Origin: an uncultured Candidatus Melainabacteria bacterium
Lineage (GTDB): Bacteria > Cyanobacteriota > Vampirovibrionia > Gastranaerophilales > Gastranaerophilaceae
Length of the DNA: 21,423 bases
Assembly (NCBI GenBank): GCA_934754735.1
Contig: CAKVJE010000021.1
Location: forward strand, 1 to 21,423
Direction: 5' to 3'
The position numbers were made by a program, and so were the translations under genes. Numbering within the stretch: the first letter of the stretch is position 1; each line of letters opens with the position of its first letter. This document shows positions 4,735-19,714 of the stretch, one piece after another. The notes under the pieces were generated by a model. That model did no database searches. It saw only the letters and a program-made list of their open reading frames with translations, and was not told where the DNA came from.

Positions 4735-5019
4735 ATGAGAGTTAGTCCGATAGGATTTACTACTCCTGTTTTGCAAAAAACAAGGAGCAGAGTTGCGCAT
4801 GAAAAACCACAAGAGCCAGTTGCTGCGCCAATTGCGTTTAAAGGCCATTTGAAATTCGGCGATTATTTAGTTGGCGCGATTTGCGGAGGTGCAATGGCAG
4901 CAGTAGGCTTCGCTGTCGCAGGCCCAATTGGTGCAATAGCATTGGGAGCATTAGGCGCAAAAACAACTGCTGAAGCTAATAATGATACTAGAAAAGAAAG
5001 CTACGATAAGAAAGATTAG
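4735..5019 (+). CDS. Small glycine-zipper membrane protein with MRVSPI...FKG N-terminus
   Basis: 94 residues, no function recognised. The N-terminal 40 residues are polar and begin MRVSPIGFTTPV, ending at IAFKGHLKFG; versions of this bipartite motif recur in other proteins of the window. Residues about 44-75 form one or two hydrophobic Gly/Ala-rich helices (VGAICGGAMAAVGFAVAGP, then IGAIALGALGA) with GxxxG-like spacing, as in glycine-zipper membrane proteins that oligomerise. A charged tail ends the protein. There is no classical signal peptide because the hydrophobic stretch starts after residue 43. The start is supported by AGAGGTG (4724-4730) and a consensus promoter. It may sit in the inner membrane; a small export or toxin-like role cannot be excluded. 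Confidence 0.8.
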   Translation: MRVSPIGFTTPVLQKTRSRVAHEKPQEPVAAPIAFKGHLKFGDYLVGAICGGAMAAVGFAVAGPIGAIALGALGAKTTAEANNDTRKESYDKKD

Positions 5020-5077
5020 TTATTATTGTCAATTTAAAATGATTAAAACTTACTTTTATGCTAAATACCTCATAAAT

Positions 5078-5095
5078 ATTATTCGTACGAATAAT
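5078..5095. promoter_or_regulatory. Perfect 18-bp palindrome (possible operator)
   Basis: ATTATTCGTACGAATAAT reads identically on both strands with no spacer. It lies between the 94-aa gene (ends 5019) and the gene at 5277, about 146 bases upstream of the TATAAT at 5241. It could bind a dimeric regulator. No T-run follows, so it is not a terminator. The rest of 5020-5276 is AT-rich with TATAAT at 5241-5246 and 5254-5259. Confidence 0.4.
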
Positions 5096-5276
5096 TTCAT
5101 TACATAAAACGCGTAATACGAGACGAATTACAATATATTTACATTTCTTAAATATTAACATATATTTTACAAACGTTATACTTATAAGTTATATATATTT
5201 TTTACAATGTAACAATCGCGCTCATTTTAGTAAAAAAATCTATAATATTAATCTATAATACTAATGGAGGCAAGTT

Positions 5277-6020
5277 ATGCTTAAAGTTTTATCAACCAAT
5301 TTATATTACAATAACGCGCGAAAAGAAATACAAGTAAATAAAAGTGACATTCCTGCAAATAATTCTACTCAAGGCCTTTCTAAGGAATATTCCACAGTAT
5401 CAAAAACTTATGCTTGTACTCTGCCAAATTTTAAAGCCAAGCAATTGAACGATATAGACTTAATTTTAACAGATGAGCCAAGTTTGCCAAGAGTAAGTGT
5501 ACAAATACTTAAAAATGACGATTTTCAAACAAAAACAGGTCTCTGCGCTGTTTATGAAATAGCTTTGCATGACCAATTGCACGATTTGTTACGAAGAAAT
5601 CCGGAAATTAAAGACAAAGGTTCGTGCATAAAAGACTATAAACGTAAATTTGACATAAGTTGTGATGAAAAAGATTTTATTAAAACATTAGATATGATTA
5701 ATGAACAATTTGTAACTCCTAAAATTCAAAAACGTTACATTGATAATGCCCTGCATCTCGCACCAATAGGTTATACACTTCATAACTTAAAAATCGATGC
5801 GGATTTTGATTATACTGATGTTCCGGCAAATACTACGCAAGAAGAATATGAACAATTGATAAAAGAAATTTCTTATGAAGATGTACAAGAATATAGCGAT
5901 AATGTGTTAAAAAACTCTGATATTCGTATTGCAATCTCTGCAAATCGTGATTTTTATAATAAACATGAAGAAGAGATTCAAACGCGACTTGCAAATATAT
6001 TTAATATAGCAAAAGGTTAA
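5277..6020 (+). CDS. M16-like protein without the HxxEH motif, single lobe
   Basis: 247 residues, ATG behind GGAGG (5266-5270). After a polar N-terminus ending in LPNFKAK (49-55), residues 65-240 follow the order of an M16 (pitrilysin-type) lobe: a PRVSVQI strand, a helix GLCAVYEIALHDQL where active enzymes carry HxxEH, and near the C-terminus ISYEDVQEYSDNVLKNSDIRIAISA, the usual 'v..edv..y....l....v.v.i' segment. The zinc-binding histidines are absent, so it is probably not a peptidase. It resembles the converging gene at 6029-7375 in this last segment. The N-terminus has no hydrophobic signal. The assignment rests on pattern recognition alone; the alternative is an unrelated alpha/beta protein. 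Confidence 0.6.
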   Translation: MLKVLSTNLYYNNARKEIQVNKSDIPANNSTQGLSKEYSTVSKTYACTLPNFKAKQLNDIDLILTDEPSLPRVSVQILKNDDFQTKTGLCAVYEIALHDQLHDLLRRNPEIKDKGSCIKDYKRKFDISCDEKDFIKTLDMINEQFVTPKIQKRYIDNALHLAPIGYTLHNLKIDADFDYTDVPANTTQEEYEQLIKEISYEDVQEYSDNVLKNSDIRIAISANRDFYNKHEEEIQTRLANIFNIAKG

Positions 6021-6028
6021 TTCTTTTT

Positions 6029-7375
6029 TTATACAGAGGCCAAATCATCGTAATATTGCTTTATATCATCTTCACTTATAGAATCAATTATTTCATACAG
6101 GTTAAAAACTTCATCTGAATAAGACATCAATTCTAAATGTTTTATAAAATCTAGTCTTTCTCCTGTAAATGCCTGTTTTAATTTTTCTTTTATTTCGTAT
6201 TTCTGCTTTTCAATTTCTGATGCCAAATCTTTGTTGCAAATTTTATTCAATGCATTAGAAAAATCTGTAAAATCTTTGTCGTTATCTTTTATATCAATTG
6301 TACAAAAAGTGCAATGATACTTTATTGATGAATTGTTTTTCAACTCTAACGGGATTGAAAAATGCTTTGTGCCTAACGAATAATTTTTGTTAATATCTTT
6401 ATCTGAATTTAGAATATTAATCGCAATATTTTCAATTATACTATCTTTTGTGTTTACAGCTTTTGTTGGAATTTTCAATGTTGATTTGTCTACTATTAGT
6501 GTATTCCCTACTAATTTTGGGACATTAGAAGTTGTAATATCGCTATTTAAGAATTTTAAATTCGTTTTTGGATTTATTTGCTTTAAAATCACATCCTTAT
6601 TTTGTTCAAAATATTCTTTTGAAATTGTTAAGAAAACTTTTACACTAGAATTTTTAAAGTACTCTTCATAATATTTTTGCATATCATCGACTGTAACGTC
6701 TTCAATTTCGCGCTTTATTTCTTCATCACTCTTTAAATCGTCATTATTATAAAGCTTTTGAGTGTACCTGTTTCGTTCAATATATTCAGGAGATTTTAAA
6801 AATACTTTCAATTCATTTTTAGCGTCCTCTAAATCTTTTTTATTGAACTTTTTTGCAAATAATTCCTGATTTATTTTTTGAATATTATTTGAAAAATCTG
6901 TATCTTCTAAATTAAAAATACTAAGACAAAAACTTGAACCTATAACATTTGTACTATTTTTATTTAATAAAAAACACAACAATTTCTCCTTTAATAAATC
7001 GTGCTTTTCATAACTATTATTCTCTATTAAAATTGAATATTTTGGAATTTCTAATTCGCTATTTCCAATAGTTTCAATCTTGTCGTCTGCATTCACATAA
7101 ACTTGCAAATTAGTATCCGGATATTCGTACACATGAATATTCGGCAAATCCAAATGGTCTTTGCCTTCTGTTTTTTTGTTGTATTTGTCAGTAACTTCGA
7201 TTGGCGTCGCCAAATTGCGAAACGAAATATTATTTCTATTGAGAATTGCTTGACCGACATCATAATTTGATAATTCATTAGTTTGTGGAAGTGAATTATT
7301 CAATATTTCACCTTTTTGAGTTTGTTTATTTAAATATTGATTATTTACAATATTAAAACTTACTGGATTTATCAT
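6029..7375 (-). CDS. M16-like protein without the HxxEH motif, two lobes
   Basis: 448 residues starting MINPVSFNIVNNQ, with a polar stretch up to ISFRNLATP (about 50-58), again the bipartite N-terminal pattern. Residues about 75-265 look like one M16-type lobe ending VTVDDMQKYYEEYFKNSSVKVFL. Residues about 285-448 may be a second lobe ending SISEDDIKQYYDDLASV. No HxxEH is visible (the equivalent region reads NNSYEKHDLLKEKLLCF), so catalysis is not expected. It converges on the 5277 gene, whose stop is 8 bases away. AAAGG lies about 8 bases before the ATG. A structural or partner-binding role is inferred. Family assignment is moderate; the reading frame itself is secure. Confidence 0.6.
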   Translation of the reverse strand: MINPVSFNIVNNQYLNKQTQKGEILNNSLPQTNELSNYDVGQAILNRNNISFRNLATPIEVTDKYNKKTEGKDHLDLPNIHVYEYPDTNLQVYVNADDKIETIGNSELEIPKYSILIENNSYEKHDLLKEKLLCFLLNKNSTNVIGSSFCLSIFNLEDTDFSNNIQKINQELFAKKFNKKDLEDAKNELKVFLKSPEYIERNRYTQKLYNNDDLKSDEEIKREIEDVTVDDMQKYYEEYFKNSSVKVFLTISKEYFEQNKDVILKQINPKTNLKFLNSDITTSNVPKLVGNTLIVDKSTLKIPTKAVNTKDSIIENIAINILNSDKDINKNYSLGTKHFSIPLELKNNSSIKYHCTFCTIDIKDNDKDFTDFSNALNKICNKDLASEIEKQKYEIKEKLKQAFTGERLDFIKHLELMSYSDEVFNLYEIIDSISEDDIKQYYDDLASV

Positions 7376-7472
7376 TTACAACCTTTTTTGCTAATTCCCT
7401 ATATTAAAACTCCTAAAGATTTTTGTTGCCAATTTATTGCACAATTTTTACAAATTAATTTAACAAAAAAGA

Positions 7473-9338
7473 TTAATTATTATTATTTGTTTGTTGAAGC
7501 TTTTTGGCGTTAGCTTTTCTTGTATTATGGTAAGTTAGCATCGGAATCAAAACCCCAAGAAGGATTGGAGAAATGATTACTGTTGAAATAAATCCAGGAA
7601 GCGAATTTAGACCGCGTGCCATTTTCGCTATTTTATTATGTTTTATTTCTCCTGTACCTTTCATAACTTTCGAAATAACTTCGTCAGAAATACCATTTTC
7701 AAAAAGCTTCTTAATCTTTTCATTCTTTTCCTTACGTGAAAGATTTTTTATAGAATCTAACGTAAAAGTTTTTTCGTTGAACACCAAAGATGCGTTATCA
7801 GATTTAGAAATAATTTTTTCTAAATCTCCACCTTTCTTATCAACAAATTCCGCAAAATTACCAAATTTCTTTTTAGAATCAATATTGCCATAAATTGAGT
7901 CTAAGTCAGCTACTGACAAAACTTCCAAATCACTATAAGGATTAATTAAATCCATTGCCTTTTGGAATCCGTTTTTACCTTCAGAAGCCTTATTCGTAAG
8001 CACAAAACCTAATTTATCTTCATAAGAACGAACTATCATTTTTGTAAGCATTGGCACTGCAAACACTACAGACAAAGATGAAACAGTATCTCTTAATAAG
8101 ATTTCATTAATTTCTGTCATATCGCGTTTACCATTTTCATCAATTTGTGCTCTTTCCCAAGCTCTTTTACCTCTAGGGAAAAGCAAACCCAAAGTCGCAA
8201 GCAATGCGAATGTCGTTTTAGAGAAATTATAACCTGTGTACTCTAAAAGTTCTTGCATTTTTTCAGGTGTATATTTTGTTATAAACTTACCTAATTTAGA
8301 GAAAAATCCATCAGAATTTATCCCTTTACCTTTGAATGCTACATCATTTTGTTTGTTTTCTTCATCGTGTTGATGTTGTTTTGCGTGTTCTAACGCAGCA
8401 GCCCCGGGTGAAACATCACTCTTTGCATACAATTTAGGCAAATATGATAAACCTGCCAATGTAATAGCTACGTTGCCAACATTCACTGCCAGTCTTTTTG
8501 TTGCAAAATTATTTTTAATATTTTCTGCCGCAACTTCATCTAAAGTTTCACTATTTTTATTATTTTTAATCGCATCATTACCAAAATCTTTTAATGCAAG
8601 TAAAGCTTCGCTCATGCTGAAGGCTTTTTTGTTTTCGCCTTCGCCAACATAAAGTTTATTTATGTTATACAAATCTGACGAAGTTTCTGTTATTTTAGAA
8701 TTTATCTTTTCTGTTATTCTGCCTAATGCAGCATTTCTGGTTTCACTGTCTTTCCCATTATCAAAGATTTCAAAATCTTTCATTAAACCAGAAACAGTTT
8801 CTTTAAAGTTCTTATCATTAGGAACAGAATTTTTATAAATTGCTTCTAAATTACGTTTATAAAACTCATTTTTAAACTTATCTTTATCTTTTTTTATCAC
8901 ATTATCAAAATCCGGACTCTTAACCATTTGTTTAAGACTTTCTCCAAATCGTTTGATAAGTCTTGTATTTGTATTGGTTGATTTACAAAATCTCCCGGAT
9001 AGGGCTAAAACTGCCGGAGCTACACCAACAATAAACGGGCCAGTCATACCCTCACGTCCAAGAACTTCTAAACCTTCTTGCTTGTTATATTTACCTGTTA
9101 TTTCTTTGTCTCTTTGAAAACCGGTCCATACTCTCGGAACAGTCATGCCTAATCCGTCTTGAATAAGGAATGAAATAAAATAACCTTTGCTTTCAATCCA
9201 TTGCATGATAGCCCCTGTTGCACCTAAAACAGGCATCATTCCCATTGCTGATTTAAAATTTGGATTTTGAGCTTTTGTATTTCTTTTTTGTGCCTTATTA
9301 TTTGGCAAAACATTTCCAGATATTGCGTTAACCTTCAA
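7473..9338 (-). CDS. Large membrane protein of unknown function with MKVNAIS...NFKSA N-terminus
   Basis: 621 residues; family not recognised. It begins MKVNAISGNVLPNN and reaches PNFKSAMGMM at residues 26-35, the bipartite N-terminal motif; a second internal VAFKGKG occurs near 333-339. Hydrophobic segments are near 98-115, 284-303, 372-388, 416-436 and 587-606. Polar, lysine-rich helical regions of 170 and 150 residues sit between them, with Gln/His-rich stretch HAKQHQHDEENKQ about 318-330. The start is a TTG at 9338: GGAGG (9346-9350) is 7 bases upstream, and a promoter and a dyad lie just before it. The lysine-rich stretches and membrane spans suggest an inner-membrane or secreted scaffold, but this is only a guess. 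Confidence 0.75.
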   Translation of the reverse strand: MKVNAISGNVLPNNKAQKRNTKAQNPNFKSAMGMMPVLGATGAIMQWIESKGYFISFLIQDGLGMTVPRVWTGFQRDKEITGKYNKQEGLEVLGREGMTGPFIVGVAPAVLALSGRFCKSTNTNTRLIKRFGESLKQMVKSPDFDNVIKKDKDKFKNEFYKRNLEAIYKNSVPNDKNFKETVSGLMKDFEIFDNGKDSETRNAALGRITEKINSKITETSSDLYNINKLYVGEGENKKAFSMSEALLALKDFGNDAIKNNKNSETLDEVAAENIKNNFATKRLAVNVGNVAITLAGLSYLPKLYAKSDVSPGAAALEHAKQHQHDEENKQNDVAFKGKGINSDGFFSKLGKFITKYTPEKMQELLEYTGYNFSKTTFALLATLGLLFPRGKRAWERAQIDENGKRDMTEINEILLRDTVSSLSVVFAVPMLTKMIVRSYEDKLGFVLTNKASEGKNGFQKAMDLINPYSDLEVLSVADLDSIYGNIDSKKKFGNFAEFVDKKGGDLEKIISKSDNASLVFNEKTFTLDSIKNLSRKEKNEKIKKLFENGISDEVISKVMKGTGEIKHNKIAKMARGLNSLPGFISTVIISPILLGVLIPMLTYHNTRKANAKKLQQTNNNN

Positions 9339-9360
9339 TAGACAACCTCCATATCCCGAT

Positions 9361-9379
9361 TAGTGTAACCTTTACACTA
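9361..9379. promoter_or_regulatory. Dyad overlapping the start of transcription (possible operator)
   Basis: TAGTGTAA-CCT-TTACACTA is a perfect 8-bp inverted repeat with a 3-bp centre. It overlaps the end of the minus-strand -10 box and the predicted start point of the 621-aa gene. It fits a repressor operator, or a 5' stem-loop in the leader. Confidence 0.5.
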
Positions 9380-9407
9380 TTATACAGATTTGTTTAATTC
9401 TTAACAA
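9379..9407 (-). promoter_or_regulatory. Promoter of the 621-aa membrane protein gene
   Basis: Minus-strand TTGTTA (9407-9402), 17 bp, perfect TATAAT (9384-9379). Predicted start near 9372, inside the dyad at 9361-9379. Confidence 0.6.
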
Positions 9408-9478
9408 GTAAAGTATATACGATTGTAAGAAATCTTTACATAAAAGATGAAAAGAGCGATTAAATACAACGTTTTACA

Positions 9479-9487
9479 TGCTAAAAT
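9479..9487 (+). promoter_or_regulatory. Extended -10 for pncC
   Basis: TGCTAAAAT fits an extended -10 (TGn + TAAAAT). A recognisable -35 at 17 bp is lacking. It lies just before the GGGGG ribosome site (9494-9498), so the leader would be very short. Confidence 0.35.
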
Positions 9488-9505
9488 ACCAACGGGGGTT
9501 AAAAT

Positions 9506-9979
9506 ATGATAAAAAAAATTGCAAAGATTTTAATAGATAAAAAAATAACAGTTGCGACGACTGAATCTTGTACAGGCGGACTCTTAAGTTCAAAGTTTAC
9601 GGATGTTAGCGGAAGTTCCGCTTTTGTTCATTTAAACTTTGTTACTTATTCTAATGAGGCAAAACATAAAATTTTAGGAGTTTCAAAAGACACTCTTGAT
9701 AAATATGGTGCAGTTAGTAAAGAATGTTCATTCGAAATGGCGCAAGGATTACATACAGTAACAAAAGCAGATATTTGTATTTCTACAACAGGAATCGCTG
9801 GCCCTACCGGTGGTAGTGATGAAAAACCTGTAGGTTTGATGTATTCAACGATTTATACTCCTAATAAATCTGAAACATTTAAGGTTTTATTAGATTCTAA
9901 TATTGAGCGTGTAACAATGAAAGAGGAATTTGTAAAAGCTGTGTTAGAAAAAGTTTACACCTTTTTGCTTTTTGTATAA
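9506..9979 (+). CDS. pncC: Nicotinamide-nucleotide amidohydrolase (CinA C-terminal family)
   Basis: PncC deamidates NMN to nicotinic acid mononucleotide, returning the pyridine ring to NAD synthesis. At 157 residues it is a stand-alone CinA C-terminal domain, without the N-terminal MoaB-like domain of full CinA. Signature segments are all present: TTESCTGGLLSSKFTDVSGSS (about 18-38, with the active-site serine region), FVTYSNEAKHKILGV (45-59), YGAVSKE (67-73) and TGIAGPTGGSDEKPVG (95-110). The ATG follows a GGGGGTT ribosome site with 5-8 base spacing. The downstream TonB-C/TPR gene begins 9 bases after the stop and probably shares the transcript. Confidence 0.93.
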   Translation: MIKKIAKILIDKKITVATTESCTGGLLSSKFTDVSGSSAFVHLNFVTYSNEAKHKILGVSKDTLDKYGAVSKECSFEMAQGLHTVTKADICISTTGIAGPTGGSDEKPVGLMYSTIYTPNKSETFKVLLDSNIERVTMKEEFVKAVLEKVYTFLLFV

Positions 9980-9988
9980 AATTGACTT

Positions 9989-10810
9989 ATGGGAGTAAGT
10001 GCAAAATATTTTGTTTTATTTAGCATGTTTTTATTAATGCTTACAATTCCTGTGTGCGCGTCAGAATTTGACTACAATCAGTACAGAGGAAATACTGAAT
10101 TACAAAATAATTTTTCAACTTACATGAATAATTTGCAGGCAAAAATTCAACGTTGTTGGAACCCGCCGGATTTTGTTGAAGACGGTGACGCAACTGTTAT
10201 GTTTAAAGTTACGCGCTGGGGTAAAATTGTAAATGTGGATTTTGTAAAAAGCTCCAATAATCCTGTTTTTGATGAGTCAGCACTTGATGCTCTTAGAAAA
10301 GCTGAACCGTTTGATAAATTTCCTGCTAGTACTTCAAAAGACTCACTTACTATAAAATACAATTTTCACACATCAATTGTGAAAACAGATACAATGCGTG
10401 AATGTATGGATAATGCGGATAAGTATTACAATGTCAATAATGAAACAGCTTTAAATTACATAAATAAAGCTATTGATGAAGTTAGCGGTGATGCAGAGTC
10501 TTACTTTTTATACGAGAAAAGATGCAAAATTCGACAAGCATTGGGAGATTATAATGGTGCAAAAGAAGATTTAACAGAAGCTAAACGTCTAAAAGAACGC
10601 TATGATTTAAAGCGCATTAATACTTGTAAATTAATTGCAGAAATGGAGCAATCACCATTTTCATATTTTTATCTGGCGCACGCTTACGAAATTGCAGGTG
10701 ATTATGAGCACGCCTTGAAAGCTATCGACAAAGCGATAGATTTGACTGAATTAAACAACCAATATAAAAGATATAAAACTGAATTAGAACAGAAAAAGGC
10801 GTGCAATTAG
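9989..10810 (+). CDS. Exported TonB C-terminal domain / TPR protein
   Basis: 273 residues. A signal peptide spans about 1-25 (hydrophobic YFVLFSMFLLMLTIPVCA, probable cleavage after CA or CAS). Residues about 47-128 match the TonB/TolA C-terminal fold: LQAKIQRCWNPPD, a strand-rich TVMFKVTRWGKIVNVDFVKSS, then PVFDESALDALRKAEPFDKFP. Two or more TPR-like helical pairs follow (about 145-205, with ALGDYNGAKEDLTEA, and 217-255, with LAHAYEIAGDYEHALKAIDK). It therefore probably acts in the periplasm as an adaptor. It lacks the N-terminal transmembrane anchor and proline-rich arm of real TonB, so it is not an energy transducer. No clear ribosome site precedes the ATG, which lies 9 bases after the pncC stop, consistent with coupling. 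Confidence 0.8.
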   Translation: MGVSAKYFVLFSMFLLMLTIPVCASEFDYNQYRGNTELQNNFSTYMNNLQAKIQRCWNPPDFVEDGDATVMFKVTRWGKIVNVDFVKSSNNPVFDESALDALRKAEPFDKFPASTSKDSLTIKYNFHTSIVKTDTMRECMDNADKYYNVNNETALNYINKAIDEVSGDAESYFLYEKRCKIRQALGDYNGAKEDLTEAKRLKERYDLKRINTCKLIAEMEQSPFSYFYLAHAYEIAGDYEHALKAIDKAIDLTELNNQYKRYKTELEQKKACN

Positions 10811-10811
10811 G

Positions 10812-10839
10812 TTGCAAAAGTCTTAAAATATGATATAAT
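10812..10839 (+). promoter_or_regulatory. Promoter of the EF-hand gene
   Basis: TTGCAA (10812-10817), 16 bp, extended -10 TGATATAAT (10831-10839). It gives a leader of about 60 bases. A second TATAAT at 10885-10890 is too close to the ribosome site to be useful. Confidence 0.6.
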
Positions 10840-10907
10840 AAGTATATCTAGGATGATATTTGTATTCGTGTAAGTACAAAAGTGTATAATTAAAAGGATT
10901 TAATATT

Positions 10908-11519
10908 ATGCAAAACAACATCTCCAATAATACCGGTTTTGGTTTGCAATCAAATTTTCTAAAAACGAATAATGCAGGTATTAATAAAATGCATTCAAAA
11001 TCAAGTTCTGCCTATTATGCTAAAAAAGGTGAACCTATGTATATGAAGGAAATGGACGCTGATGAAGACGGCGTTGTTTCGTTTGAAGAATTTAGAGATT
11101 ACTGCGATGAAAAAGGGATTTCAGTTGCAGAAAGAATTAAAATGACACAATTGGCATCATCGTATCGTACTATGCAAGCTCAAAAGAATGCATCTGAGAA
11201 AGTAAAAAAAGAAAGTGAAACTGAAAAACAGACAGAAACTGATAATAACTCAGGAAACGAAGATTCTGCTGTTTATGCAAAACGTGGCGACGGCAAGTAT
11301 GATGAGCTTATGGATGCAAATAATGATGATAAAATAACTTACAAAGAGTATATAGAATATTGTAGAGAACATTCAAAACCGCAAGAAGAAAAGGCTAACA
11401 CAAAAGCTGAAACAACTGAAGACGGCGAGTTTAAGACAACAAGTTCCGGCAAGGCAATAAATGCGTATGCACAACAAGAATCTCAACCGGCTGAAGGCAA
11501 AGTAGAAAACGAAGGATAA
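10908..11519 (+). CDS. Two-EF-hand protein with tandem repeat module
   Basis: 203 residues, ATG behind AAGGAT (10894-10899). Two EF-hand loops are evident. Loop 1, DADEDGVVSFEE (50-61), has Asp at positions 1, 3 and 5, Gly at 6 and Glu at 12 and should bind calcium. Loop 2, DANNDDKITYKE (136-147), has Asp/Asn/Asp and Glu at 12 but Asp instead of Gly at 6. Each loop sits in a repeated module of about 35 residues that starts YAKKGEPMYMKEMDADEDG and YAKRGDGKYDELMDANNDD, so the gene arose by internal duplication. Lys/Glu/Thr-rich spacers separate and follow the modules. No signal peptide or membrane span is seen. The N-terminus is Asn/Ser-rich. A cytosolic or non-classically exported calcium-responsive role is inferred. 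Confidence 0.85.
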   Translation: MQNNISNNTGFGLQSNFLKTNNAGINKMHSKSSSAYYAKKGEPMYMKEMDADEDGVVSFEEFRDYCDEKGISVAERIKMTQLASSYRTMQAQKNASEKVKKESETEKQTETDNNSGNEDSAVYAKRGDGKYDELMDANNDDKITYKEYIEYCREHSKPQEEKANTKAETTEDGEFKTTSSGKAINAYAQQESQPAEGKVENEG

Positions 11520-11641
11520 TTTTATTTTGTAATTCGTAAAATTTTAGTTACATAATGTAAAAATTGCTTCACATTCTAATGACAAAACTTCTCTATTTAG
11601 TTATGATTATTCTGTAAAGAGGAAATGGGGAGTTTTGGCTC

Positions 11642-12118
11642 GTGTTTAATAAGAAGATTGAAACGATTAATCCTATTCAAAGTACATTCTCAAGAGATGA
11701 AGACGCATTTACAGCGCTTTCTACATCAGCTTTGTTGGCAAAAAGTTCTGTACCGTATTCACACAGAAGAATTGCTGATAATTATGTAATCATCAAAAAA
11801 GTTTATCGTTTTCAAGCTGTTCAGAGCAGAATTACTAATTCAGAATTGCAACTTCTAAAAAAATACGATTTTAACACTCTTGAATTTTCTACAATCAAGC
11901 AGATTAATGAAGAATTATCTTATTTGAAAAAATGGTCAGCTTCAGGCAACGAACTTTTAAGAAAGGATGCGGACAATCTTCTTCAAATAAGATGCAAAGA
12001 ATTGAAATATATTGTGGCAAGCAGATATGCAACGGTTACAAATGAAATTTATAATGGATATAAAGCATTAGAAAAGTATTTTGAAGAGATTTCAAAATTT
12101 TACTCTCCAGTTTGTTAA
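11642..12118 (+). CDS. Hypothetical helical protein
   Basis: 158 residues, no family recognised. The start is GTG at 11642, supported by GGGGAG (11627-11632) 9 bases upstream; the ATG at 11625 is in another frame. The N-terminus MFNKKIETINPIQSTFSRDE carries an INPIQ resembling the SPI/NPV openings of nearby proteins. The remainder is predicted mostly helical and rich in Lys, Leu, Tyr and Glu, without hydrophobic membrane segments or a signal peptide. It ends at Cys158. It is flanked by the EF-hand gene and a membrane protein, all rightward, which may indicate a loose cluster of lineage-specific genes. Confidence 0.65.
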   Translation: MFNKKIETINPIQSTFSRDEDAFTALSTSALLAKSSVPYSHRRIADNYVIIKKVYRFQAVQSRITNSELQLLKKYDFNTLEFSTIKQINEELSYLKKWSASGNELLRKDADNLLQIRCKELKYIVASRYATVTNEIYNGYKALEKYFEEISKFYSPVC

Positions 12119-12174
12119 GATATCGTAACAAATAGGCAAATTTTAACTTTTAGGTGTTTTATAGTAGCCGAAAG

Positions 12175-12186
12175 GTTTTATAAAAC
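12175..12186. promoter_or_regulatory. 12-bp palindrome at the start codon
   Basis: GTTTTATAAAAC is a perfect palindrome immediately before the ATG at 12187, downstream of a TATAGT (12160-12165) that may be a -10. It could influence initiation or bind a regulator; it is short and AT-rich, so chance is possible. Confidence 0.25.
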
Positions 12187-12924
12187 ATGAATGTAAGTCC
12201 GATTAAATATAATACTCAAATACCGACTAGCAAGCCGGCATTCGGACATGGAAATTTTTGGAGTGAGAGCACATATTCAACCAAAGAAAAGTCTATAATT
12301 GCAGCTTCTTCCGCTATTGGGGTTTTAGCAGGACTTGCAGTTCTTGCAAAATGTGCAAAATATTCACTAAATCCTAAAAAAATGTTTAAAAATTTTAAAG
12401 GAAGTTATATGTATAAAGCTCCTTATGATGAAAAAGAAATCATCACAATGGGCGTTGGGTCTTGTATTGGTGGTTTAGCTGCAGGATGTGCTTTAGATAA
12501 AGATAAAAACAATAGAAAAGCTAAGCTTCAAGAAACGCTTTTGCAAATAGCTAATGTATCTGTTCCGATTATATTTGTTACAAGATTCGCAAAAGGTGGA
12601 CAAAAATTTGGTAAAAAGTTTCTTGAAAAAAATGTACATAAAGAAACTTTTAGAACAAAAATTCCTCAAGCGATTAGTGGAACAATCGGGCTATTTACAG
12701 GGGTTTGGGCAAGTAATATTTTAGCCAACAAGATTAATGAAAAAATCTTTAATAAAGGAAAAGGTCGTCCGGTTAAGTTGAGTGATTTTTCGGCACACGT
12801 GGATGATTTTTGTTCTGCTGCAAGACAATTTAATAAAGAAAGCAAACTAATTCAAAATATAACAAGATGTATCCCTGCAATTTTAATTATTCCGGGATTT
12901 GAAGTCGGAAATAAAAAAGCGTAA
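12187..12924 (+). CDS. Multi-span membrane protein with MNVSPI...AFG N-terminus
   Basis: 245 residues, function not recognised. It opens MNVSPIKYNTQIPTSKPAFGHG, matching the MRVSPI...IAFKG opening of the 94-aa protein. Hydrophobic segments are near 37-55, 85-103, 119-131, 162-180 and 226-239, separated by basic loops, so it is probably an inner-membrane protein. The ribosome site is weak (AAAGG at 12171-12175, 11 bases from ATG). It converges on the SLH gene; a hairpin lies between the two. The long Lys-rich loops resemble those of the 621-aa protein, but I cannot establish homology. Confidence 0.7.
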   Translation: MNVSPIKYNTQIPTSKPAFGHGNFWSESTYSTKEKSIIAASSAIGVLAGLAVLAKCAKYSLNPKKMFKNFKGSYMYKAPYDEKEIITMGVGSCIGGLAAGCALDKDKNNRKAKLQETLLQIANVSVPIIFVTRFAKGGQKFGKKFLEKNVHKETFRTKIPQAISGTIGLFTGVWASNILANKINEKIFNKGKGRPVKLSDFSAHVDDFCSAARQFNKESKLIQNITRCIPAILIIPGFEVGNKKA

Positions 12925-17729: not shown

Positions 17730-18128
17730 TTATATCAAAGCTCTTTCTGCGATAATTAAATTTTGCAAACCAGCTATAGCTTCTGTAGTTGCATTTTTAA
17801 CTTCTGCCATTGCATTTCTGATATCTTCAACCGTACTATTAGCAAGATTTTTTAACACTTGACCAAATTTAAGAGCCGCTTCTCTATATAGTTTGCATAA
17901 CCTCATATGTTCCTTGTGAAATTTTTCACTTTCAGTTTTATGTCCTGTATTATACAAATTGCAAATGTTTTCCATTGATGGTTTACTATATTCTCCTAAT
18001 GAATTATAATATCCTTCAAGTTCTTGTCTTGCTTTTTCAGCTTCAGACTTCACATTTTGTTGCATCAATTTTTTGAAATCACCTTGTAATTGTTTTGTCG
18101 GATAATTGTTACTAATATTAATTCCCAT
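17730..18128 (-). CDS. Small helical protein of unknown function
   Basis: 132 residues, no family recognised. Begins MGINISNNYPTKQLQGDFKK, which resembles the short polar openings of other proteins in the window. Almost entirely charged and helix-prone (LMQQNVKSEAEKARQELEGYY, then a hydrophobic-heptad stretch LKNLANSTVEDIRNAMAEV), so probably coiled coil. GGGGGAA lies about 8 bases before the ATG. It lies upstream of the nuclease-like gene in the same direction and could be its partner or antitoxin; this rests on position only. A longer frame starting at 18247 overlaps it and begins in a repeat, so it is not real. Confidence 0.65.
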   Translation of the reverse strand: MGINISNNYPTKQLQGDFKKLMQQNVKSEAEKARQELEGYYNSLGEYSKPSMENICNLYNTGHKTESEKFHKEHMRLCKLYREAALKFGQVLKNLANSTVEDIRNAMAEVKNATTEAIAGLQNLIIAERALI

Positions 18129-18544: not shown

Positions 18545-19714
18545 ATGGTACAAGCTTTAGGGCAAATTAGCAGGTTAAAAGGTTTCTTTCGCTCAGGATT
18601 GAATTATTCAAATTATGAACAAATGATTAGTATAGCTAAACGAAAAGCTTCCGGCTGCTTACCTAAAGATGTGATATCTTGTGTAACATCAAATGGTGTA
18701 AGTAACAAATCCGCAGAACAAGGTGTTGAAAAAATATTAAATGAAACTGTTGATATCTTAGGTGAAATAAATAAACTAGAACGTCAGTGTGTTAACAGAA
18801 TGAATCTCAATACATCAAAGAAAAGATATGAACATTTTTCAATGAAAGGCGACTTAAAAGGTTTTTTGAGATTAGACTCTTTGTATAAAGAAAAAGAAAT
18901 CGAAACAATTATAAAAGCGGAAGAAAAATTTCTTAATGGGATAAAAAAATACGTTCCAGATGTTCAAAATGTGATTATTACACCTATAGGCAGTGGTGTG
19001 TTTGGCAATGTATACAAACTCCAAGTTTTAAATAAAGATGGAAAACAAATATTTGATGATAAAGTCTTGAAAGTATATAGAGAAAATACCATTATTACTC
19101 ATCTAAGGAGAAAAAACAAACGCTTTACGGATAGTTTATCAGATGAAAAATTAGTAGAACAACATCTAAAAGAACATAAAATGTCAAGAAATTCTCATTC
19201 TGAAATAAATGCCTCTGAGCTAAGACAAGATGTGCAAGAACAGTTAGAATTCTGTGAAACCTGTGAAAAAGAAGAAAAACGTTTTAATGGTGCAATGGCA
19301 GAAGCCAATATTTCAGAATTTTTAAGATTTTTTACTGGGCATAAAGTAAAACCGGAAGAAGGAATCGCAATTCCTTCATATTTTGGACTAGGTGACACAA
19401 AATTTGCTTTTGGTGAATTTATTGGTAATGGAAGAAAAGCTAAAAGAAATTTTGATTTCAAACGACTATTTGTAGAACATACTGATTTCGAAAATAACAC
19501 AGGCAATGGAGTTAACGGAATTTGTATTGATATGGGTGGAATCATGCCAATAACAGAACTAGGGAAAGAAATATTCACGGTTAAAGAAAACATGCGTATA
19601 TTGAAATCTATCTTAAGTTCTCCAGAAGATAAAAGAAAAATTGCTTTAGAAGAATATAAAAAGTCCGGTATTTTATCTAAAGAAGTAATATCCCAAATAG
19701 AACAAATATTATAA
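18545..19714 (+). CDS. Kinase-fold (eukaryotic-like / effector-type) protein
   Basis: 389 residues, family not named, but the order of protein-kinase motifs can be read. A glycine-rich loop GSGVFGNVY (149-157) is followed by the ATP-anchoring lysine in VLKVY (K176), a possible C-helix glutamate in MAEANISEFL (E253 or E258), a hinge-like FGEFIG (289-294), a catalytic-loop-like HTDFENN (H312, D314, N317/N318) and the metal-binding DMGG (D329). The 90-residue stretch 180-270 is a charged insertion between K176 and the C-helix candidate. Residues 1-140 are a helical N-terminal region. No membrane span or signal peptide is seen. Bacterial kinases of this divergence include secreted effectors, toxins and HipA-like antitoxin partners. 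It is flanked by palindromic elements. Substrate unknown. Confidence 0.65.
   Translation: MVQALGQISRLKGFFRSGLNYSNYEQMISIAKRKASGCLPKDVISCVTSNGVSNKSAEQGVEKILNETVDILGEINKLERQCVNRMNLNTSKKRYEHFSMKGDLKGFLRLDSLYKEKEIETIIKAEEKFLNGIKKYVPDVQNVIITPIGSGVFGNVYKLQVLNKDGKQIFDDKVLKVYRENTIITHLRRKNKRFTDSLSDEKLVEQHLKEHKMSRNSHSEINASELRQDVQEQLEFCETCEKEEKRFNGAMAEANISEFLRFFTGHKVKPEEGIAIPSYFGLGDTKFAFGEFIGNGRKAKRNFDFKRLFVEHTDFENNTGNGVNGICIDMGGIMPITELGKEIFTVKENMRILKSILSSPEDKRKIALEEYKKSGILSKEVISQIEQIL

Follow-up and report, generated by a model that had tools for sequence, protein, structure and literature searches.

The stretch analysed here, hereafter the window, comprises 21,423 nucleotides of contig CAKVJE010000021.1 (GenBank assembly GCA_934754735.1) from an uncultured Candidatus Melainabacteria bacterium, and the nearest relatives of its MinD protein (at most 97% identity) were in Gastranaerophilales metagenome-assembled genomes (class Vampirovibrionia, alias Melainabacteria). 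Four of its proteins, of 94, 448, 621 and 245 amino acids (aa), begin with a similar two-part leader, i.e., a short start element at the initiator Met and, after a linker, a short Phe-containing element (the F element) that precedes the core of the protein (Table 1). An earlier note on this DNA had pointed to such a shared N-terminus; open reading frames (ORFs) were present at the positions and on the strands that it gave, the residues that it quoted were correct and, as it had stated, no hydrophobic signal peptide was seen by eye in the window leaders. The evidence given below suggests that the leader is probably a trafficking or sorting element.

None of the four main proteins matched a Pfam or NCBIfam profile above cut-off. 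The model of the 621-aa protein was poor (mean predicted local distance difference test score, pLDDT, of 54.7) and was not used, while in AlphaFold2 predictions of the 245-aa protein residues 1-20 had mean pLDDT values of 47 and 57 and much of the helical core exceeded 90. No fold match for this core was found in the PDB at E 0.001, and a phage origin of the protein was rejected since no match was present in phage records. The label 'M16-like' was not confirmed by sequence, as neither the 247-aa protein encoded from position 5277 nor the 448-aa protein had a Pfam or NCBIfam match above cut-off, and a sequence search of PDB sequences with both gave nothing better than E 0.1; the two proteins were weakly alike (E 2e-5 in one comparison). 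Among the weaker relatives that had been proposed, the 247-aa protein was a loose fit (MLKVLS...LPNFKAK) and the protein encoded from position 18128 was unconvincing by eye. The protein encoded from position 11642 kept its [IV]NPIQST motif in a homologue (L140:5673-6149) but had no F element that could be seen.

Table 1. Window proteins, their leaders and loci of relatives that carry type-III export genes (gate B is described in the text).
Feature	Position	Strand	Remarks
94-aa protein	4735-5019	+	core short, glycine-rich, hydrophobic
448-aa protein	6029-7375	-	soluble-looking core
621-aa protein	7473-9338	-	membrane-type; TTG start, GGAGG upstream
245-aa protein	12187-12924	+	helical core
Leader of 94-aa protein	4735..4845	+	MRVSPIG (4735-4755), linker, PIAFKG to 4845, then core
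Loose leader of 247-aa protein, weak member	5277..5438	+	MLKVLS ... LPNFKA
Leader of 448-aa protein, 54 residues	7214..7375	-	MINPVS ... NNISFRN
Leader of 621-aa protein, TTG start	9249..9338	-	MKVNAIS ... NPNFKS
Second element of 621-aa protein, residues 331-341, junction of two halves	8316..8348	-	NDVAFKGKGIN
Leader of 245-aa helical protein	12187..12249	+	MNVSPIK ... KPAFGH
Gate B loci	L142:11707-13806, L140:9021-10088, L099:15563-17928, L127:15456-17123		
C-terminal FlhA protein, examples	G003:C26:103292-104347, G002:C11:10758-11810		

Leaders were counted among ORFs called in 172 loci of Gastranaerophilales, the window among them (2.94 Mb, 2,930 ORFs, 1,445 BLAST families), i.e., in loci of relatives and the window rather than in the window's own genome. 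The start motif was defined as ^M.?[VI][NS][PA][IV] and the paired motif as the start motif with F[KRG][GSAHN] in residues 7-70. Null expectations were obtained by within-protein shuffling (500 shuffles) or by permutation of each N-terminal column, which keeps per-position composition. Comparison with shuffled N-termini, a check that the earlier note had suggested, revealed enrichment of the paired motif but not of the F element alone. The start motif was present in 12 of the 1,445 families as opposed to 0.92 after shuffling (maximum 4), or in 11 as opposed to 0.88 without the window families, and the paired motif in 8 as opposed to 0.14 (maximum 2), or in 7 as opposed to 0.11 without them. 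Under the column-permutation null, the start motif was present in 10 families compared with 0.7 expected. When co-occurrence was tested on 1,234 families of at least 90 aa, with the start motif widened and the F element made stricter, both elements were found together in 12 families (0.46 expected), the start element only in 25 and the F element only in 42 (Fisher p = 1.1e-8; 3.5e-7 without the window). Of the 1,319 initiator Met residues of proteins encoded on contiguous stretches, 6 were followed by the start motif, compared with 7 of 8,776 internal Met residues.

The F element by itself was at best weakly N-terminal. In a first sample of 682 families, neither F[KRG]G nor F.G by itself was in excess at N-termini, and a wider F element occurred, in the 1,319 proteins, at approximately 9.7 per 10,000 residues in positions 6-35 versus approximately 3.4-6.7 further in. 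The pattern [VI]SFK[GSA], which was picked after examples had been seen, occurred six times within the first 80 residues and not once in 274,390 later residues. By these patterns, the leader is a minority feature of approximately 1% of families. A loose two-part regular expression selected 50 of the 1,445 families (37 of 1,268 first members, compared with 9.6 after shuffling) but was rejected because it took in false positives by eye, i.e., UvrD-like helicase, FliD-like, flagellar rod-type and KDO8P-synthase-like proteins, and the counts used here are for this reason those of the strict patterns. When N-terminal k-mers were sought de novo, hydrophobic N-termini and ORFs that looked spurious by eye overwhelmed the result. 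Two distant control genomes (G085 and G095) gave one strict pair in 287 families (0.02 expected), most likely a 76-aa ORF at L173 that may be spurious. The wider pattern also caught a Ham1 protein at L180 in these controls and, because this protein resembles a true leader carrier, the two genomes are not clean negatives. Two Ham1 matches were present in G085, in one of which the Ham1 domain begins at residue 48 behind a leader.

Homologues of three window proteins kept both ends of the leader. Among the matches listed for the 245-aa protein (120 of 128 homologues), 118 distinct leaders were read, which mostly began M-[NQS]-[IV]-[SN]-P-[IV]-N, continued with a linker and ended in F-G-H (98 of 118) or in F-x-H or Y-x-H (the other 20), with a distance from Met to F of 6-27 residues (median 15). 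In an alignment of 82 sequences of this family, F19 was conserved in 99% and H21 in 100%, and mean conservation was 27% for linker residues 8-17 and 69% from residue 32 onward. Among the matches listed for the 621-aa protein (120 of 925 homologues), all 26 distinct leaders that were read contained F-[KG]-S at a distance of 23-39 residues; no leader was matched in 21 of the 120, several of which begin inside the protein. Similarly, F-[KQRE]-G was kept in 20 of 20 homologues of the 94-aa protein at a distance of 12-36 residues. Most leaders carried Ile or Val at positions 3 and 6 and polar residues at positions 2 and 4. As far as these alignments indicate, conserved ends joined by a drifting linker are the signature of a functional two-part motif.

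The proposal that the element is modular and sits on unrelated cores was borne out by the unrelated enzymes that were found behind it. Profile scans of the window proteins and of 30 leader candidates picked by eye led to rejection of a single core domain common to the tagged proteins. At E 0.001, Pfam recognised eight of the candidates: two metallophosphoesterases that also carry a 5'-nucleotidase domain and one each of a glycosyltransferase, amylase, HAD hydrolase, dual-specificity-type phosphatase, Ham1 protein and CheR-like protein, the match of the last falling under its curated cut-off. The other 22 were without a match. Short amylase_C proteins of approximately 585 aa were present in five of eight genomes searched, and all five begin with a leader by eye (e.g., MIQVSKISTLNFKA). 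Evidence of modularity was also seen within the 621-aa protein, the two halves of which are adjacent separate ORFs in other genomes. F335 and K336, where the halves meet, were conserved in 22 of 22 aligned homologues, and in four of seven split pairs (L194, L195, L196 and L213, the first two nearly identical) a leader or F element was seen by eye at both starts; in the other pairs (L197, L198 and L199) the leader was clear in one ORF only or was weak.

The relation of the leader to classical signals was examined in 5'-nucleotidases. The 5'-nucleotidase C-terminal domain (PF02872) was matched in 56 of 57 relatives, and of the 30 loci that were kept a script classed 16 N-termini as Sec-like, six as leader and six as other, with two unparsed; the proteins at L260, L265 and L268 were also leader-like by eye. 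The 16 Sec-like proteins came from genomes G062-G084 and the six leader proteins from close relatives (G021-G031), and the maximum hydropathy over 12 residues was at least 2.3 for the former and at most 0.9 for the latter. Judged from these sequences, the leader of 5'-nucleotidases is in the place of the Sec-like signal of their homologues. Like a Sec signal peptide, the leader is N-terminal and precedes the mature domain; unlike one, it contains no hydrophobic stretch in the examples examined.

A candidate reader of the leader was found among type-III export genes. FlhA-family matches were present in 93 of 97 relatives, and four genomes (G002, G007, G052 and G059) each carried two FlhB, two FliP and two FliF types as well as two FlhA proteins (one being fragmented in G052), beside a protein with the C-terminal part of FlhA only. 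The two sets are here called gate A and gate B, and the parts of the latter (FlhA-B, FlhB-B, FliPQR-B and FliF-B) are scattered over several loci. FlhA of gate A in G002 scored 848.3 bits, above the NCBI flagellar cut-off of 772.1 (TIGR01398), while FlhA of gate B in the same genome scored 691.3 bits against this profile and 585.1 bits against that of injectisome SctV (TIGR01399, cut-off 692.25), i.e., below both cut-offs. FlhB of gate B in G002 was also under both the flagellar and the injectisome cut-off, and the B-type FliP of G008 passed the fliP cut-off. The single full FlhA, FlhB and FliP of G008 grouped with gate B by score, as did the best FlhA match of G074, and in both genomes FliF was of the B type only and no flagellin match was found. 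In G003, flagellins were present together with an A-type FliF, but FlhB and FliP were of the B type only and FlhA was represented by a C-terminal match alone; its missing A-type parts and full FlhA were provisionally taken for assembly gaps. The protein of approximately 496 aa that matches FlhA over its C-terminal part alone (profile positions 321-655) was noted in all genomes with any FlhA match (6 of 10). A 2,800-aa ORF of another locus (L022:4214-12616, + strand) has an N-terminus that by eye resembles FliD, the flagellar cap protein.

According to the portions seen of three reports (PMC3787301, PMC4040986 and PMC5877343), gene sets of Gastranaerophilales have been read as complete or reduced flagella; one of these sources lists flhA twice in one genome and another counts complete flagellar sets in 3 of 9 genomes. 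In contrast with these flagellar readings, as they appear in those portions, the sets described here look like two gates, one of which appears to persist without flagellin. Because G008 and G074 contain leaders and a B-type gate in the absence of a flagellin match, the flagellum was rejected as the sole reader.

Leader genes were also noted close to gate B genes. A leader gene is located two genes from flhB-B in three of six genomes looked at (G002, G003 and G059), and in G008 a leader gene directly adjoins fliR-B, while none of nine neighbours at two gate A loci was flagged as a leader gene. A script's leader flag at L127 proved by eye to be a false positive. These findings are suggestive of linkage between leader and gate B. 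Pair counts per group of genomes, for which wider patterns were used, were 6 compared with 1.13 expected in close relatives with both gates (of which two did not convince by eye), 2 compared with 0.20 in G008, 2 compared with 0.40 in G072 and G074 together and 2 compared with 0.56 in distant genomes with a gate, where one of the two was a flagellar rod-type protein. Two other observations concern the same loci. The genes at 11642 and 12187 of the window (11642-12924) have side by side counterparts in G002 (L140:4928-6149), approximately 3-4 kb from flhB-B. In addition, a 519-aa protein of the flhA-B locus (L142:2875-4434, - strand), which starts MGMAASQARYLALTARK and has no NCBIfam match, is a possible substrate of gate B.

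We propose that the leader could be a portable N-terminal targeting signal with a start element of approximately M-[KRNQ]-[IV]-[NS]-[PAST]-[IV]-[NSKG], a polar and apparently disordered linker of variable length and a Phe element, usually [PVI]-[SNA]-F-[KGR]-[GSAH], located right before the folded or membrane core. This leader would replace the Sec signal and might be read by gate B. Two features of type-III substrates were found, namely lack of a Sec-like signal by hydropathy and an N-terminus that appears unstructured from the low pLDDT of one protein. That a second, divergent type-III gate is the reader, with leader-directed export by this route, is the leading reading but a tentative one, to which we give clearly less than an even chance. 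If gate B is the reader, its substrates, the tagged proteins, would be enzymes and membrane-active proteins destined for export, and the more comprehensive proposal, that this non-photosynthetic sister group of cyanobacteria possesses a dedicated, flagellum-independent type-III machine through which the two-part leader routes such proteins, is doubtful enough to be offered only as a working model. If correct, it would provide a type-III signal recognisable in sequence and with it a view of the non-Sec secretome of gut Gastranaerophilales. To our knowledge, a type-III signal with a consensus is unusual.

Among the closest known parallels is the FlgD-type dual signal by which early flagellar subunits are exported, which, in the part of PMC8983047 seen, consists of an N-terminal hydrophobic signal and a gate recognition motif that must be separated by at least 26 residues. 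Like the leader, this signal comprises two short elements in proteins that lack a Sec signal; in the FlgD type the first is non-polar at positions 2-5, and the second is hydrophobic, lies downstream and docks on the FlhB cytoplasmic domain. Unlike it, the leader was found on unrelated enzymes. A second parallel is offered by Chlamydia, for which the parts seen of PMC3722199 and PMC9251005 call phosphoglucomutase a type 3 substrate and place glycogen synthase outside the organisms. As far as those parts go, the likeness lies in everyday enzymes of metabolism that occur outside the cell although they lack a classical signal, the leaders described here being known from sequence alone. We know of no consensus leader of such kind on the Chlamydia glycogen enzymes.

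Several results weigh against gate B as the reader. The distance from Met to F is as short as 6 residues in the family of the 245-aa protein compared with the at least 26 given for the FlgD-type signal in the part of PMC8983047 seen, and because this spacing is lacking the leader does not belong to the FlgD type, although it could work in a like manner. Carriers include helical membrane proteins as well as enzyme families that are normally cytosolic. No leader was found in pieces of approximately 1.25 kb at flhB-B of G052, G007 and G008, or beside flhA-B or fliF-B of G002, and since the neighbours seen in G003 and G059 are closely homologous genes the gate linkage amounts to few events. In G003, one pair was found compared with 0.34 expected and the start pattern was not in excess (4 compared with 7.0). 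Four distant genomes without gate genes contained no pairs in 227 families, but 0.24 were expected by chance and these genomes are distant, so that they do not discriminate.

An intracellular sorting tag is nearly as likely as gate B, given that a number of the tagged enzymes belong to families often found in the cytosol. Such a tag, bound by a cytoplasmic scaffold, a membrane receptor or a storage granule (e.g., glycogen), would concentrate its carriers there. The glycosyltransferase, amylase, Ham1, phosphatase and HAD hydrolase carriers fit this explanation, as does the highly variable spacing at which the F element lies near the core, whereas the position of the 5'-nucleotidase leader, where homologues carry a Sec-like signal, does not; no receptor or scaffold came up, though no search was aimed at one. 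The earlier note had suggested that the element was a sorting or anchoring tag; a shared, modular N-terminal element enriched as a pair is supported, but nothing favoured anchoring in particular.

A different non-Sec route of export or membrane insertion (e.g., type I, type II or type IV-like secretion or a translocon of a new kind) would draw on the same support as gate B except for the gate linkage. No linkage to such systems was noticed, although no dedicated search was made, and we regard this route as rather improbable. Marginally less probable again is an N-terminus with no role in trafficking, i.e., a processed pro-peptide, an element for folding or stability or a sequence inherited through duplication and shuffling. 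Every functional link is indirect, as this explanation would have it, but the cores are unrelated and the ends are conserved while the linker drifts. In addition, leader DNA showed little sign of recent copying, as three of the four window leaders were identical to the others at 6-11 of the first 18 bases, except perhaps for the leaders of the 94-aa and 245-aa proteins (14 of 18). An artefact of chance or of composition at AT-rich N-termini, which the scant enrichment of the F element alone and the false positives of the loose expression might suggest, is very improbable given the paired motif (8 compared with 0.14), the column null (10 compared with 0.7), a Fisher p of 1e-8 and conservation in three families.

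No description of the leader or of a second gate was found in the titles and listed abstract openings of the open-licence papers searched on Gastranaerophilales, Melainabacteria, Vampirovibrio and Vampirovibrionia. Should the leader prove to be a targeting signal, it would assign a location to otherwise anonymous proteins of a hardly cultured gut lineage, and it may open a way to study a second export gate, which is treated elsewhere, in the parts of the sources seen, as part of the flagellum.

Other genes of the window were noted in passing. An EF-hand protein (10908-11519, + strand) has two calcium-site matches and the N-terminus MQNNISNNTGFG, which is perhaps a distant leader. A 389-aa protein (18545-19714, + strand) contains by eye a kinase-like stretch, GSGVFGNVYKL, and had no Pfam match. 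The protein encoded after minD (2184-2705, - strand) is in the place of MinE, by which position it was named, and has a long acidic C-terminal tail, and a single protein at 9989-10810 (+ strand) carries a TonB C-terminal domain followed by TPR repeats.

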